Assembly (NCBI GenBank): GCA_017615405.1
Contig: JAGAAE010000155.1
Span: 1-5,677 of the forward strand
Length of the DNA: 5,677 nucleotides
Source of the DNA: Clostridia bacterium
Lineage (GTDB): Bacteria > Bacillota > Clostridia > Oscillospirales > Acutalibacteraceae
Direction: 5' to 3'
Below, piece by piece: positions 1 through 5,677 of this stretch. The notes below the pieces were generated by a model, which saw only the letters and a list, made by a program, of their open reading frames with translations, was not told where the DNA came from and made no database searches. The translations under genes were made by a program, and so were the position numbers. Each line of letters starts with the position of its first letter. The stretch's first letter is position 1.

Positions 1-1450
1 CGACGTCGTGGGTCACCATAATAACCGTTATCCCCTCGCCTTTCAAGGTGCCGAGAATACTGCCGAGTGTCCTTTTAAACGCAGCGTCAAGTCCCTTTGT
101 CGGTTCATCGAGCAAAATTATACGAGGTTCACGAAGCATAAGTTTTACAAGAGCGCATTTTTGCTGTTCACCGCCGCTTAAATCGTAAGGGTGGCGGGAA
201 AGCAACGGCTCAATACCGAAAAGATTTATCCATTTTTCGGCTTTTTTTGAAAAATACACATCGGAACCGCCCGCCAGTTTCCATGCGGATCTCAGATCAT
301 CAATAACTGTATTCCCTGCAAAAAGCAGGGTCGGATCCTGAGGAAGCAGGGCGACCGTTTTCCTGTAAAGTGAATTACCTTTATAATCTTTTATCTTCTT
401 TCCGAAGATACGGCAGGTGCCGGCGTATGGGATCCGAAGACCGGCGATAATGTCAAGCGCGGTAGTCTTCCCGCTTCCGTTTTCGCCGAGGATCGCAAAT
501 ATCTCGCCCTTGCCGACTTTAAGTGTCATTTCGTTTATTACGTCAGGCGATGTTCTTTCATACCGGAACGTCACCTTATCAAGTTCAACGGCAGCTTCGG
601 TTTCTTTAAGCGGCAATTTTTCAGTTTTTCCTTTTGCGTCGGGGTAATTATTCGTCAAAAAAGTTCTGCCTTCCTTTACGGTCAAGGGGCAAACACCTGT
701 CGCGCCAAGCCCGGACCAGAGGCGAGCAGGGGTCGGAAAGCCGGAAAAAATCGGGTTTCCCCGCAAAGAGTTACAGACTTCATTCGGGCTTCCTTTTGCC
801 GCAAGTTTTCCGTTTTCAAGCACTAAAACGTTATCGCTGAGCGGAAAGACCTCTTCTAATCGATGTTCGCTTATAATCACCGTAACGCCTGATTCACGGT
901 TGATTCTTTTCAGAGTATTGAGAAAATCGGATGCCGCTATCGGGTCAAGCTGTGCGGTCGGCTCGTCAAGGAGCAGAATATCCGGGCGCATAACCATAAC
1001 CGAGGCGAGATTGAGAAGCTGTTTTTGCCCGCCTGATAGAGTGTCGGTGCTTTGATGATACCATCCTCCGATACCGAAATAACTTGCCGTTTCCCCTACT
1101 CTAAGACGTATTTCTTCGGGGTCAAGTCCCATATTTTCAAGCCCGAACGCCATCTCGTGCCAGACCTTATCGGTGACGATACCGTCGTCGGGGAACTGCG
1201 AAACAAAGCCTATCCTGTCGAATGAGATACTATCGGCGGAACGACCGAAAAATTCAATATTGCCGATTATTTCACCCACCGGAGCGATCTCGTTTTTCAG
1301 AAGTTTCAAAAGCGTCGTTTTTCCGCTTCCCGACTCACCTATTATCAGATTAAAACTACCTTCAGGCAGAGTAAATGATATGTCATCAAGAGCTTTTCCC
1401 ACGCCGGATGGATAAGAGAAGGTCAGATTTTTGATTTTAATCGTTTCCAC
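1..1450 (-). CDS. ecfA: Fused double ABC ATPase of an ECF-type vitamin transporter (3' end beyond window)
   Basis: Energises an ECF transporter by hydrolysing ATP at the cytoplasmic face of EcfT. Two complete ABC domains lie in one chain, as in YkoD-type ATPases. Domain 1 shows Walker A GESGSGKTT (38-46), Q-loop Gln85, signature LSGGQ (138-142), Walker B LLLDEPT (Asp162, Glu163) and H-loop His196 in SEHR. A linker of about 80 residues follows. Domain 2 shows Walker A GENGSGKTT (322-330), Q-loop Gln371, signature LSGGEQQ (from 424), Walker B ILLDEPTKGLD (Asp448, Glu449) and H-loop His481 in THD. All catalytic motifs look intact in both halves. The frame is open for 483 codons to the window edge, so only the last part is missing. 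The start is GTG at 1450, chosen because AAAGGAG lies 8 bases upstream. It overlaps the end of ecfT by 28 bases, implying coupled translation. The family call is firm; the substrate is inferred from the operon. Confidence 0.93.
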   Translation of the reverse strand, partial: METIKIKNLTFSYPSGVGKALDDISFTLPEGSFNLIIGESGSGKTTLLKLLKNEIAPVGEIIGNIEFFGRSADSISFDRIGFVSQFPDDGIVTDKVWHEMAFGLENMGLDPEEIRLRVGETASYFGIGGWYHQSTDTLSGGQKQLLNLASVMVMRPDILLLDEPTAQLDPIAASDFLNTLKRINRESGVTVIISEHRLEEVFPLSDNVLVLENGKLAAKGSPNEVCNSLRGNPIFSGFPTPARLWSGLGATGVCPLTVKEGRTFLTNNYPDAKGKTEKLPLKETEAAVELDKVTFRYERTSPDVINEMTLKVGKGEIFAILGENGSGKTTALDIIAGLRIPYAGTCRIFGKKIKDYKGNSLYRKTVALLPQDPTLLFAGNTVIDDLRSAWKLAGGSDVYFSKKAEKWINLFGIEPLLSRHPYDLSGGEQQKCALVKLMLREPRIILLDEPTKGLDAAFKRTLGSILGTLKGEGITVIMVTHDV

Positions 1451-2301
1451 TTAATACGCTCCTTTACTTCAAGAATTGACGGCAAAAACGAGAGTACCGA
1501 AAACATTATGACCGCCGCCGAGCTTTCAAACGAAAGCCATTGTACGGTAACTGCCGGATAGTATGAAAAATCAAGACCGTGACGAAATGAAACGATCATA
1601 ACACCCGAAACAAGGCACACGCAAAGTACAATCAATATAAGATCGCGAAGACGAAAAGTAATGTCCGAGTAGGTTGTTCGACGGTTTTTCCCGTAGCCTC
1701 TCGCACGCATTGAATCAGCTGTTTCGACCGCTCTTTCCAGCGACCAACCGACCAGGGCATTAAAGGTGTGAAGTACCGCTTTTACTCTGTCAAAATAGCC
1801 GTCGGATGAGGTTTGACCGAGTGTTTTTTGCGCCCTGGCAAGCCGCTTAGACTGTTTTTTAAGCATTGGGATGTACCTTAGTGCTGTTGAGAGAACAATC
1901 GCGGTCTTAGGGGTCATCCTTCCAAATAGGTAGACGGTTTTATCAGCGGTTAAAACAAGGCTAAGCGCCTTACACCAGATAAACACCGAACTGACCATAA
2001 GCCCTATCCCTGCGCCATAAAGGTAGGCTTCAAGCGTGACCGGATTATCGTTAAAATAGTATAGCACCGTAACGCCGTTATGTGAAAAGAAGGGATTGAT
2101 TGCGGTTATAAAGCAAGAGAGGAAAAGACATAAAAGCAGACTGCGACGAAGGTCATTCCACGAGGCAAGAAAGGTGCAAAAGAGGACCGCGCCCGCAAAC
2201 GAAACACATAAAAGTATCGGGTTAGGTATGAACATCGAAACAAGCAAAATTTCCAAAAAGCACAGTGCGGCGGCGACCGGGTTGCAGTTTTTAAGTGTCA
2301 T
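1423..2301 (-). CDS. ecfT: ECF transporter transmembrane component, EcfT/CbiQ family
   Basis: This is the membrane scaffold that couples the ATPase to a substrate-binding S component. The 292 residues are in the family's usual range. Hydrophobic segments lie at about 10-45 (probably two), 52-72, 92-118, 218-238 and 260-278. The cytoplasmic coupling-helix motif ADSMRARGYG is at 195-204, matching the A-R-G signature by which EcfT proteins grip the ATPases. A second family-like stretch, NPFFSHNGVTVL, is at 69-80. The ATG overlaps the stop of the upstream gene in an ATGA (2298-2301), and a full AAGGAGG lies 6 bases upstream. The 3' end overlaps the ATPase start. Family membership is strongly supported. 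Because it sits behind a cobalamin riboswitch and transcobalamin-like proteins, corrinoid is the inferred substrate, but EcfT itself does not set specificity. Confidence 0.92.
   Translation of the reverse strand: MTLKNCNPVAAALCFLEILLVSMFIPNPILLCVSFAGAVLFCTFLASWNDLRRSLLLCLFLSCFITAINPFFSHNGVTVLYYFNDNPVTLEAYLYGAGIGLMVSSVFIWCKALSLVLTADKTVYLFGRMTPKTAIVLSTALRYIPMLKKQSKRLARAQKTLGQTSSDGYFDRVKAVLHTFNALVGWSLERAVETADSMRARGYGKNRRTTYSDITFRLRDLILIVLCVCLVSGVMIVSFRHGLDFSYYPAVTVQWLSFESSAAVIMFSVLSFLPSILEVKERIKWKRLKSKI
1459..1465 (-). promoter_or_regulatory. Ribosome binding site of the ABC ATPase gene
   Basis: AAAGGAG on the minus strand, 8 bases before a GTG codon and inside the ecfT coding region. It decides the GTG start at 1450, since no ATG lies nearby in that frame. 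Confidence 0.75.
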
Positions 2302-4085
2302 GAGCCGCCTCCTTCCGAAGAGAAGGTGTTACCGGTATCGACGCCTAAATCAAGGGTATACATCCACTCTATGACGTCACCGGGTTTCACCTTGTAACCC
2401 GCGCATCCGATAAAAGGAGATTCACCGTTGACGTGATAGACCCAGCCCGACATATCGCCGAAATCAAATTCATATAGATACCGGATACCGGCGATATAGG
2501 TCATGCTCCCCGACCCTTTTTTCTCCATCTGGATGCCGTTTTGTTTTACGGCACAGGACAGGACGTCATATACCGTGTCGCCTTTTTCAATATCTATTTT
2601 TGTCGGCGGTAGGATGCACCCGTCCTTCGGAACAAATTTTGAATCGGTTTTTCCGGCAACGGTATCGCACCTGATCGAGATCGTGACTGTGCCGACGGCA
2701 TTATTCTTGGCGGGGACTTTATTATGCTGAGAAACGGATTCAAAATTCGTAAAAACGACAAACGAAACACACACCGCAAAAATGCAGATAACAAGCAAAA
2801 TATTCTTTCGGTTTGCTTTCTTTATTATGAATAAAATCAGCGCAAAAACACCTGCCAAAACAAACAGAACAATAACGACGACGAGTTTATAGCTTGTGGA
2901 TTTAGATTGCCGCTTTGTGGAAACGGTTGATTTATCATTGCCCGGTTCGTTATTATTCGATTTGCTTTCGCCGATCGTTTGAGTTTCGGGATCTGCGGAT
3001 TTTTCCTGTGTCGATTCTGATTTTTCAGAAACTTTTGAAGCACTTTTCGGGGAATCAGTATCACCGGATGAAGGATTTATATCTCCCTTTTCCGGGGAGG
3101 AAACACTACCGCCTTCTTCTTTATTTGTTTCGACTGAAGCAAGGTGTGAAAAACCGCCGCTTTTTAAACGGAACATTTTCAATCCATCAAACGGAGTATT
3201 GCCGTTTTTTTGAAAGCGCTGATCAGTTCGACAATCAATTTTAAGGTCTGAAAGCGCCGTTATGACCTGCGCCGTGCTCTCACAGTTTTCTTTACCTAAT
3301 GTAGAGAAGCTTCCGTCGGCATTTTGTTTGTTCGCTAAAAATGCGATCGCGCGGTCAACCGCCGCCTTGATATTCGGCTCGTTATAGTGAGGCGCCAACG
3401 CCTGCAAGACCATTGAAGTCACGTCGACGTCTCCCGAATCGCCCCTGACCGACCAACCTCCGCCGGGCTTTTCCATATTAAGAATTCGGGTTTTGATCTG
3501 ACCGACGGTATACGATTTGCTTTCAATACCGTTATTTAAAAGATGAAGACCGAACACCTGAGCCATTAAGCCCGCCTTATCAATCGGAATATCGGCAATA
3601 TCTTGAACAACGCCGTCCCGTTTTCCCGTTGCAATGAGGGTAAGCGCAAACTTCTGCGCCGTTTCCGTAACCCTCGGCATATTGCCGGCAAGATAGTCGA
3701 TAAGCGCTGCCTGATACGATTTAAAGTCATAATTTCCGTTTTGCGAGAGTGCGATAACATACCACTCCGATCCGGAAGCGACGTTATTTGTCAGGGTCGT
3801 ATCGATCCAGTTTTGAACCGACAAATTCCCTTTTTTAGACGCAAGGATGCCGTCGGCAAGATCTTTCACCTCACCGACGGTATCAGTTAAGTTATTCACG
3901 TTCCCGCTGTTATTAAAGACGTAAAGCGAAGAACTTCCGTTTTTCATTCTCGCATATGCGACCAATGAATAGTAGGACTGTGACGTTGCGCCGTCGTTGA
4001 ACGGTTCCTCTGACGCCGCCGTGAAAGACAGCGAACAGAAAAGCAACAGCAACGCCAAAGCAAGTGAGAATAACTTATTTCTCAT
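2298..4085 (-). CDS. Membrane-anchored intrinsic-factor-like protein: alpha/alpha-barrel plus DUF4430 domain
   Basis: Predicted extracytoplasmic corrinoid-capture protein of 595 residues. It begins with a signal peptide (about 1-25, MRNKLF then a Leu-rich core ending TAAS). Residues 35-316 look like a prenyltransferase/terpene-cyclase-type alpha/alpha-barrel, with repeats marked by GGGWSV (208-213), DVTSMVLQAL, QNADGSF (254-260) and STAQVITALS. A Ser/Lys/Glu/Asp-rich linker (317-398) follows. Two hydrophobic segments (about 399-422 and 428-446) flank a short basic loop, KKANRKN. A DUF4430 (transcobalamin C-terminal-like) domain spans about 464-595, with GDTVYDVL, SGWVYHVNG (546-554) and GDVIEWMYT. 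This topology would put both folded domains outside the cell. ATG 4085 is chosen over an in-frame TTG at 4103 because it starts the signal peptide directly and overlaps the upstream stop by 11 bases. No strong SD is visible, so translation is probably coupled. Domain calls are good; cobalamin binding is inferred. Confidence 0.88.
   Translation of the reverse strand: MRNKLFSLALALLLLFCSLSFTAASEEPFNDGATSQSYYSLVAYARMKNGSSSLYVFNNSGNVNNLTDTVGEVKDLADGILASKKGNLSVQNWIDTTLTNNVASGSEWYVIALSQNGNYDFKSYQAALIDYLAGNMPRVTETAQKFALTLIATGKRDGVVQDIADIPIDKAGLMAQVFGLHLLNNGIESKSYTVGQIKTRILNMEKPGGGWSVRGDSGDVDVTSMVLQALAPHYNEPNIKAAVDRAIAFLANKQNADGSFSTLGKENCESTAQVITALSDLKIDCRTDQRFQKNGNTPFDGLKMFRLKSGGFSHLASVETNKEEGGSVSSPEKGDINPSSGDTDSPKSASKVSEKSESTQEKSADPETQTIGESKSNNNEPGNDKSTVSTKRQSKSTSYKLVVVIVLFVLAGVFALILFIIKKANRKNILLVICIFAVCVSFVVFTNFESVSQHNKVPAKNNAVGTVTISIRCDTVAGKTDSKFVPKDGCILPPTKIDIEKGDTVYDVLSCAVKQNGIQMEKKGSGSMTYIAGIRYLYEFDFGDMSGWVYHVNGESPFIGCAGYKVKPGDVIEWMYTLDLGVDTGNTFSSEGGGS
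2308..2314 (-). promoter_or_regulatory. Strong ribosome binding site of ecfT
   Basis: Perfect AAGGAGG on the minus strand, 6 bases before the ATG at 2301. It is embedded in the last codons (Glu-Gly-Gly-Gly-Ser) of the upstream gene, so ecfT can initiate strongly even though its start overlaps that gene's stop. Confidence 0.8.
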
Positions 4086-4914
4086 AAACTTTTTTAGCCG
4101 CAAACGCCGCTAATGCGCCGGACAAAGCAACCATAAAAACAAGGATGCTCAAATCGTCGCCGGTCTTGGGCGATTTGTTCTCTGTGGTTGCCTGAGGCTT
4201 GGCGTTGACCGTTACCTTAAGTACAGGCGGAACAAGAATGTCGTCAACCTTTTTTGCGCTGATAAGGTATTCTCCCACTTTATCCATTGGGATAGTCACC
4301 TTGCCGTTTTCATCGGTTTTAAGGGTTGTTTCAACTCCATCAATAGTGATGATCGCCTCAGCAACGTTGACGTTTATCGGGGCGTAATCGGCGTCAAACA
4401 CAACGGCTTTCAGCGTAACGGTAAGCTTGTCCCCTTCTGTTACAGTCGCATTGAATTTATCAAAGAAACTGTAACTGTCGGACGTCGTTTCATAGGTCTC
4501 GGGGTTAAACTCATAGACCTGAAAAATAAAGGCATTGAGATAATCACCCGCTTTTATTTCATCTGTAAGACCCATAGCCATTTTGTTGTTGACGTAGTAG
4601 CTGAAGTTACCGCTTGTATCACCCCAAAGCTTGGTGATGTAAAGTCCGTATTGACTGGTACCGGTAGCATACCCGGCAGCGGCGCCGCCTTCATACTTTG
4701 CCTCGTGCATGGCGAAAAACGCCTCGTCAAGGTCAAATTTTCCGTCGCCGTTTTTATCGGTAACGGTTATTTTTTCCTGTGATAAAATGATTTTTCCAGA
4801 ATTGTCGCTGAAGGTGACAAAAACGTCAGTAGTTGCAGCCTCCGCAACCGCGCAGATTGAAAAGCATCCTGCGACGATCATTATTGCCAATAATAAACCG
4901 ATTATTTTCTTCAT
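4075..4914 (-). CDS. Sortase-anchored surface protein with DUF4430-like module and EF-hand-type loop
   Basis: First gene of the operon, 279 residues, predicted to be displayed on the cell wall. The signal peptide is 1-26 (Lys-Lys, hydrophobic core, AEA before Ala27). A lipobox-like VAGC at 14-17 is also present. Residues 29-135 form a DUF4430-like module: an EF-hand-type loop at 53-64 (Asp53, Asn55, Asp57, Gly58, Asp61, Glu64), then YGLYITKLWGD, YYVNNK and KAGDYLNAF, which recall the end of DUF4430. Residues about 160-237 look like a small beta-sandwich (TDENGKVTIP, GEYLISAKK). The C-terminus has SPKTGDD (248-254), a hydrophobic stretch and a Lys-containing tail, the layout of a sortase signal; SPKTG is a known sortase B target form in Clostridioides difficile. 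The ATG has AAAGGAG 8 bases upstream. Its role as a corrinoid-binding or relay protein is inferred from the riboswitch and neighbours. The anchor is better supported than the ligand. Confidence 0.82.
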   Translation of the reverse strand: MKKIIGLLLAIMIVAGCFSICAVAEAATTDVFVTFSDNSGKIILSQEKITVTDKNGDGKFDLDEAFFAMHEAKYEGGAAAGYATGTSQYGLYITKLWGDTSGNFSYYVNNKMAMGLTDEIKAGDYLNAFIFQVYEFNPETYETTSDSYSFFDKFNATVTEGDKLTVTLKAVVFDADYAPINVNVAEAIITIDGVETTLKTDENGKVTIPMDKVGEYLISAKKVDDILVPPVLKVTVNAKPQATTENKSPKTGDDLSILVFMVALSGALAAFAAKKVYEK

Positions 4915-5040: not shown

Positions 5041-5142
5041 CAGATGATATTTCCGTTATCGAGATTCTAAGCGCAAAATGGCACAAAACCCGCAAAAACG
5101 GTAAAATCGATCGCACCCTTCACGCCCAAGTCGTGTAAACCT

Positions 5143-5306
5143 TGAAGAAACGGCAGGTATCTGGCTTATGACAAATAAACCAAGAAAAATCAATGATAGA
5201 ATAACAATGATATATTTCGTCAAACACAGTAATGGCGGTTGCTCCGGATTCGAACCGGATATCCTTTTGATCTACTCAGCTAACAACTTTTCAAACCGTA
5301 TCTTCC
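5143..5306 (-). promoter_or_regulatory. Cobalamin (B12) riboswitch aptamer
   Basis: Read on the minus strand. The B12 box AGCCAGATACCTGCC (5152-5166) matches the conserved AGCCAGGAGACCTGCC element. Upstream, AAAAGGATATCCGG, a loop, CCGG and then CCGCCATTACTG (about 5226-5268) match the conserved AAAGGGAA / P3 / CCGCCACTGT core. A closing P1 stem pairs GAAGATACGG (5296-5305) with CCGTTTCTTC (5144-5153), with one mismatch. The middle arm between core and B12 box is short and A/T-rich. The downstream genes (DUF4430, intrinsic-factor-like and ECF components) fit cobalamin control. The class, and whether it prefers adenosyl- or another cobalamin, cannot be read from the sequence. Confidence 0.85.
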
Positions 5307-5327
5307 AAAACTATTAAGTTTGAACAC

Positions 5328-5456: not shown

Positions 5457-5532
<76 letters not shown>

Positions 5533-5576: not shown

Positions 5577-5677
5577 GATGTGTTCCGCTTACACGGAACG
5601 TGATGTGTCCTTCGGACGTGATGTGCACTTCGTGCGTGATGTTTTCCTTCGGCAAGTGAATAGGAACGCATCACATC
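5577..5677. repeat. Array of small hairpins with 18-base period and variable stems
   Basis: The spacer GTGATGT occurs exactly at 5600, 5618 and 5636, each followed or preceded by a small hairpin. Stems are GTTCCG/CGGAAC (5582-5599), GTCC/GGAC (5607-5617), GCAC/GTGC (5625-5635) and an imperfect TTTCC/GGCAA (5643-5655). The last three share the loop TTC. Stem sequences differ but stay self-complementary. The ends GATGTG (5577) and CACATC (5672), with GTTCC and GGAAC just inside, could close the whole array. It is cut by the window edge. No mobile-element gene is visible, and I do not recognise a named family. Confidence 0.7.

Follow-up and report, generated by a model that had tools for sequence, protein, structure and literature searches.

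The window analysed here is the whole 5,677-base contig JAGAAE010000155.1 of a Clostridia bacterium, likely of a gut type, whose source assembly is 64.5% complete. Its minus strand carries, in the gene order read from the sequence, a cobalamin riboswitch (RF00174), a gene for a protein termed U, a gene for a protein combining a toroid, a membrane hairpin and a DUF4430 domain (hereafter the receptor), a gene for the membrane subunit EcfT, and a gene for an energy-coupling factor (ECF) ATPase. The riboswitch, which the initial annotation had reported, is real and lies 220 nucleotides ahead of the first gene. The gene junctions overlap or almost abut: the ATG of the receptor lies 11 bases within the end of U, and the receptor stop and the EcfT start share ATGA. 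An EcfT and paired ECF-type ABC ATPases, as an ECF transporter requires, are both present (PF02361 and two ABC domains); the ATPase scored 303.1 bits against TIGR04520, under the cut-off of 315. The receptor is likely to be a membrane-anchored, transcobalamin-type corrinoid (B12) receptor that feeds the ECF importer of the same operon.

The receptor model contains about 12 toroid helices, with a block-mean predicted local distance difference test (pLDDT) score >90 across residues 81 to 320 (numbering as in Table 1). A Foldseek search with the model returned 16 PDB chains at E<=0.001, and all 16 were transcobalamin, haptocorrin or intrinsic factor. In the model, an α6/α6 toroid and a C-terminal β domain are present within one chain, as in these animal B12 carriers. 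The DUF4430 domain was also recognized from sequence (PF14478, residues 508-583, 60.3 bits vs the curated cut-off of 23.8). The claims of the initial annotation that both domain types stand in one chain, that PF14478 would match, and that the fold resembles intrinsic factor and transcobalamin were all borne out. Its terpene-cyclase-like barrel appears in the model; the hidden Markov model (HMM) match to SQHop_cyclase_C stayed sub-threshold (23.3 bits, cut-off 26.1, residues 222-294), and sequence matches of the toroid to terpene cyclases in the PDB were weak (E 1e-4).

Table 1. Features on the minus strand of the window. Residue numbers of the receptor count from an alternative TTG start at 4103 (601 residues).
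Feature	Position	Strand	Evidence
Cobalamin riboswitch RF00174, operon head	5135..5315	-	Infernal 47.9 bits vs cut-off 31.5; full model 1-189
U protein, 279 residues: signal peptide, SLBB/DUF4430-like domain, Ig-like domain, SPKTGD, C-terminal membrane helix	4075..4914	-	AlphaFold2 (AF2)
U β-grasp domain, residues 22-134, predicted transcobalamin-β-like	4513..4851	-	fold
U EF-hand-type loop DKNGDGKFDLDE, residues 53-64, predicted calcium site	4723..4758	-	within β-grasp domain
U SPKTGD sorting-type motif, ahead of C-terminal membrane helix	4156..4173	-	
Toroid / membrane hairpin / DUF4430 receptor, 595 residues from ATG at 4085, stop at 2298	2298..4085	-	
Predicted signal peptide, residues 7-33, end set by eye	4005..4085	-	sequence; model helix 8-25
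Circularly permuted last toroid hairpin, residues 34-67, N-terminal	3903..4004	-	hairpin HMM, family profile
Remaining α/α toroid, residues 76-323	3135..3878	-	model helices, pLDDT mostly >90; fold matches
Charged low-complexity linker, residues 326-403, predicted disordered	2895..3128	-	pLDDT ~34-41 over 331-400
Membrane helix 1, residues 405-426	2826..2891	-	model + hydropathy
Short basic loop, residues 427-431, predicted cytoplasmic	2811..2825	-	alignment A1, charge count
Membrane helix 2, residues 432-451	2751..2810	-	model + hydropathy
DUF4430 / transcobalamin-type SLBB domain, residues 471-590	2334..2693	-	PF14478; 5no0 in Foldseek, E 2.0e-4
EcfT/CbiQ membrane subunit	1423..2301	-	PF02361 54.4 bits
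ECF ATPase, two ABC domains in single chain, truncated by contig end	2..1450	-	ABC_tran in two stretches

The toroid could instead be an enzyme, a class II terpene-cyclase-like or glycoside hydrolase-like barrel to which the DUF4430 domain is a mere anchor or cap. This is highly improbable, and the terpene cyclase version was rejected: the DXDD motif (D.DD) is present in 0 of 221 family sequences at the aligned site, which we take to be its location in class II terpene cyclases; moreover, Foldseek puts the B12 carriers first, and the operon encodes an importer with a B12 riboswitch. The transcobalamin clade of SLBB domains has a β-hairpin insert behind its helix, with a conserved aromatic or hydrophobic residue (PMC1796856, PMC1949818; papers are cited here and below for the available parts of their text). 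The receptor model has such an insert, formed by strands 526-529 and 536-540 between helix 511-521 and strand 553-558, and Y536 is conserved in all 221 family sequences, a set that includes four near-identical pairs (common 200-residue core). The arrangement of the domains in the model weighs against a transcobalamin-type receptor, since their placement is unlike that in transcobalamin (two-domain root-mean-square deviation of ~10-20 Å in Foldseek) and the predicted template modelling score is 0.60.

The charged linker and the two membrane segments around a basic loop, described in the initial annotation, were all recovered, the two segments as model helices and in every two-domain family member examined. 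A simple hydropathy script found two hydrophobic segments in 221/221 two-domain sequences, and the least-hydrophobic stretch between them had a net charge of at least +2 in every one (mean +4.0). The two helices flank KKANRKN, and KKxxxKN is conserved around the short loop in alignment A1 (50 of 121 sequences). Both receptor domains are predicted to be extracytoplasmic and tethered by the membrane hairpin, in agreement with the outward-facing arrangement that had been proposed.

The usual chain order, also assumed in the initial annotation, did not hold as stated. In the non-permuted relatives, the final hairpin of the toroid (consensus ATVQVFYSLVAYLRMKEGKSPLYILDN) lies shortly behind GSFxH; in the window protein the same hairpin lies ahead of the first toroid helix. 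For a hairpin HMM, C-terminal hairpins from 101 non-permuted relatives (out of 111) served as the sole training set; the remaining 10 did not match the anchor pattern but were scored all the same. The HMM matched N-terminally in the window protein and P0001-P0009 (10/10, 49.1-58.8 bits, window 49.1). The hairpin is C-terminal in all 111 other relatives and N-terminal in none, and 20 relatives retrieved later are likewise C-terminal (131 in total). P0001, which matches the window protein at 100% identity across 88% of the latter, was excluded from the relatives, so the permuted set is the window protein plus eight. A separate search tool divided the window gene in the same way: profile positions 279-320 of the family align to bases 4028-3903 (E 2.3e-6), whereas positions 26-584 align to the following bases, 3902-2334. 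The permutation is defined against these 131 bacterial relatives; the helix order of the animal carriers was compared through sequential fold alignments only.

An N-terminal hairpin might also be an independently gained extra pair of helices, since α/α hairpins are mutually similar and four of the 10 permuted rows showed additional matches within the toroid, at chance level (E 0.54-16). No significant C-terminal copy was found in the 10 permuted rows, however, and 0 of 200 shuffles reached E<0.1; together with the swapped order in the whole-family profile, this led to rejection of an extra helix pair as extremely unlikely. Circular permutation is further described by a tree built from the core regions of the toroid and the DUF4430 domain, with the hairpin left out (70 of 221 rows, quick method, no bootstrap; 10 permuted rows, L003 and P0003 being one protein). 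The permuted rows form one clade (Shimodaira-Hasegawa-like approximate likelihood ratio 96) with one change, and 0 of 500 shuffles were as low as one change. On this sequence tree, the permutation is a single event in one clade. No two-hairpin intermediate was seen among 140 proteins and 79 loci. The hairpin was sub-threshold in three of the 79 named loci and in the same-genus loci L021 and L022, where the best weak match is C-terminal. When a profile of the permuted clade was used as the query, the best 120 of 469 proteins contained no permuted member other than P0001-P0009. Because the model has a helix at residues 37-54 within the displaced hairpin (block-mean pLDDT 82-95), the hairpin may still close the toroid ring.

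The U protein lies immediately upstream of the receptor gene in 65 of 79 loci. Its AF2 model has a pLDDT of 92.2, and the top VIA-align match of its N-terminal domain is 5no0, the human transcobalamin β domain. By sequence, U had no Pfam match as DUF4430, and the hhalign probability was 0.7%. From the fold of the model and one bridging protein, this domain is predicted to be a transcobalamin-type β-grasp. The EF-hand-type loop is well conserved among the 47 of 71 U proteins that were aligned: D53, D/N55, D57 and D/E64 in 47/47, and G58 in 45/47. An xPxTGx motif is found within the final 70 residues of 41 of the 71 U proteins. A protein in the U position of another locus (L023:6672-8348, plus strand) has two DUF4430-profile matches and C-terminal dockerin-like DxDGxxxxxDA repeats.

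The relatives, mostly from uncultured Clostridia, were collected with the family profile from genome contigs (80 named loci, the best 80 of 583) and as lists of homologous proteins (the best 120 of 476 and the best 120 of 469). They include Ruminococcus flavefaciens, and the contig of the same-genus relative G002 is identical to one of Ruminococcaceae bacterium UBA3220. A single-sequence scan of the genome contigs gave no matches, and the family profile found no transcobalamin among PDB sequences. The receptor gene was recovered in 79 of the 80 named loci from open reading frame (ORF) calls. Within the next five same-strand genes, EcfT was found in 57 of these 79 loci, the ATPase in 66 and an S component in 58, and all five operon genes in 39; these counts are lowered by contig ends and simple ORF picking. 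The ATPase and S genes stand upstream of U in L033, L041, L058 and L059. The S component of the relatives is a PF07155 member (44.9 bits). Its profile, built from 11 sequences, matched 6fnp_A with 56.3 bits (E 3.2e-14), and the next S components scored 21.2 and 16.2 bits. By its length and entry 6fnp_A is CbrT, and on this profile evidence it is the nearest solved relative of the family's S component.

CbiN consists of two helices and an extracytoplasmic loop, and the membrane hairpin of the receptor might similarly act as a substrate-specific subunit in a system without an S component. The window and its genome, 64.5% complete, indeed gave no S component. The contig, however, stops before the expected place of the S gene, and a CbrT-like S gene follows in the 58 loci counted above and behind the ATPase in the same-genus genome G023; a CbiN-like hairpin was therefore rejected as very unlikely. 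For the permuted clade no S component was observed, as flanking DNA of its members came only from the window and from L003 (identical to L032), a contig of 3,170 bases. In the incomplete genome of the window CbiD was not found, and the B12-binding domain gave only a weak match (21.2 bits vs the 32.1 cut-off).

The riboswitch scan covered 45 loci, 35 from the named set of 80 and 10 others; B12-class riboswitches exceeded the gathering score in 25 of them, and the 22 tabulated riboswitches lie 12-529 nucleotides ahead of the first operon gene. In genome G032 the toroid and DUF4430 domains are encoded by separate genes ~1.6 Mb apart, each with a cobalamin riboswitch (125.4 and 114.9 bits); the split halves are retained under the same type of control. 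The initial annotation had drawn the B12 context from the riboswitch alone. The riboswitch stands, and the context now extends to the CbrT-like S component of the relatives and these two riboswitch-led halves. In genome G022 a riboswitch match was found at the toroid-U pair only.

Another split receptor was observed in the same-genus locus L022 (6261-6773, minus strand, and 12045-13409, plus strand), where a lipoprotein-like DUF4430 protein stands with EcfT, ATPase and S genes; its toroid, with a C-terminal membrane helix, is riboswitch-led and paired with U. In L073, L046, L036, L047, L051 and L044 an AdoCbl-II riboswitch (RF01689) heads the operon in place of RF00174, and riboswitch classes seem to have been swapped ahead of the same genes. 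A second cobalamin riboswitch lies between the receptor and EcfT genes at L072:9581-9713 (plus strand), in addition to the one before U.

Instead of cobalamin itself, the receptor might bind a different corrinoid or tetrapyrrole (cobinamide, a precursor of cobamides or heme), and the importer would then be a system for corrinoid salvage. CbrT accepts both cobalamin and cobinamide (PMC5997447), other ligands were allowed by Burroughs et al. and their reviewer (PMC1796856), and PF07155 is the riboflavin S family. Both the B12-class riboswitches in 25 of 45 loci and the exclusively cobalamin-carrying fold matches point to cobalamin-type corrinoids, which leaves another ligand rather unlikely.

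For the transcobalamin-type receptor, the following mechanism is proposed. At low B12, the riboswitch would permit expression of the operon, and the wall-held U protein would capture a corrinoid through its β-grasp domain. The toroid and DUF4430 domains, both outside, would then sandwich the corrinoid as in transcobalamin, while the hairpin would hold the receptor next to the CbrT-like S component. The S component would accept the ligand and topple into the EcfT-ATPase complex (EcfT-AA'), where ATP would power import. Despite the circular permutation the ring would stay closed, and only the entry and exit points of the chain would shift. Corrinoid binding, hairpin docking and ligand hand-off are steps that we infer. 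The two domains of human transcobalamin can be made separately and come together on cobalamin (PMC5599065). A clamp whose halves are connected through a flexible linker and a membrane hairpin is consistent with this behaviour, and so are the natural splits. The chances appear about even for a wider scheme: an ECF importer with its own receptors, a wall-held β-grasp catcher and a hairpin-docked transcobalamin-type clamp that passes B12 to a CbrT-like S component. The ring of the clamp would have been permuted in one clade without loss of the system, so the B12 site would need ring closure, not chain order.

The general domain plan, the headline of the initial annotation, is not new in bacteria because Burroughs et al. 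(2007) had described bacterial toroid and SLBB fusions as likely B12 scavengers. Those authors reported the fusions as anchored or secreted, in CbiO/CbiQ operons and frequently accompanied by another SLBB protein, and proposed both a role in B12 scavenging and a transfer to animals (PMC1796856). The toroid-SLBB fusion, the signal peptide, the CbiO/CbiQ operon and the second extracellular SLBB protein are shared with the present locus; whereas the permuted toroid, the two-helix hairpin between the domains, the CbrT-like S link and the B12 riboswitches are found here. The terms 'permut', 'riboswitch' and 'S component' are absent from the available text of PMC1796856, figures aside. Open-licence PubMed Central papers yielded no literature on the permutation, the hairpin or the CbrT link, and, in their available text, none on DUF4430 in bacterial B12 uptake. 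The present analysis adds the circular permutation, the two membrane segments in all 221 two-domain members examined, the fold match of U, the CbrT-like S link and the riboswitch survey.

Human transcobalamin, intrinsic factor and haptocorrin, the best PDB fold matches, share the toroid and a β-grasp domain with a hairpin insert before strand 3. The animal carriers are soluble and internalized by receptors (CD320, cubilin); whereas the protein described here is predicted to be membrane-anchored, is permuted against its bacterial relatives, and is encoded beside an importer. The folds of the Bacteroides surface lipoproteins BtuG and BtuH presumably differ from that of the receptor. These lipoproteins also capture B12 at the surface of gut bacteria before a transporter, but in the setting of a Gram-negative outer membrane and BtuB (PMC6143338, PMC10404256). 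The ECF-CbrT structure (6FNP) includes EcfT, the ECF ATPases and an S component homologous to that of the relatives. CbrT, which transports cobalamin and cobinamide, itself binds the ligand (PMC5997447); here two extra predicted extracytoplasmic receptors stand ahead of the S component. Ruminococcus gnavus RUMGNA_00854 (3u7z) is a solved bacterial DUF4430-type domain and a fold match to both the receptor and U; however, it is a 96-97-residue chain without a toroid, and its title is putative metal-binding protein.

B12 is a contested resource among gut microbes and hosts, and open-licence PubMed Central papers seem to say little about its capture ahead of an importer in Gram-positive Clostridia of the gut. 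ECF importers are usually described without an extracytoplasmic binding protein; here, if the proposal is true, two-receptor corrinoid capture would feed one. Through the family, a defined importer would become associated with the bacterial relatives that human intrinsic factor has. Two questions become testable: can ECF transporters employ a dedicated receptor outside the cytoplasm, and did bacterial surface proteins of this kind give rise to the B12 carriers of animals, an origin put forward by Burroughs et al.? The permutation and splits found in nature are also ready constructs for finding the toroid parts that form the B12 site.

In a sample of 117 genomes from the order of the window, the family profile matched 55, many through one domain only and part of them in the linker/membrane region only (E 1e-6 to 1e-3). 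At least 12 of the 117 genomes, including that of the window, have both domains in one frame (E<1e-100). Family-profile matches were also observed within very long frames of 2195, 2534 and 1464 residues (G106:C20, G075:C1 and G125:C1), which suggests large multi-domain surface relatives. On the plus strand of the window, a Gut-1 RNA match below threshold (5596-5667; 27.9 vs 50 bits, E 0.025) sits among short GATGTG-type repeats, downstream of a tRNA-Met (5457-5532).
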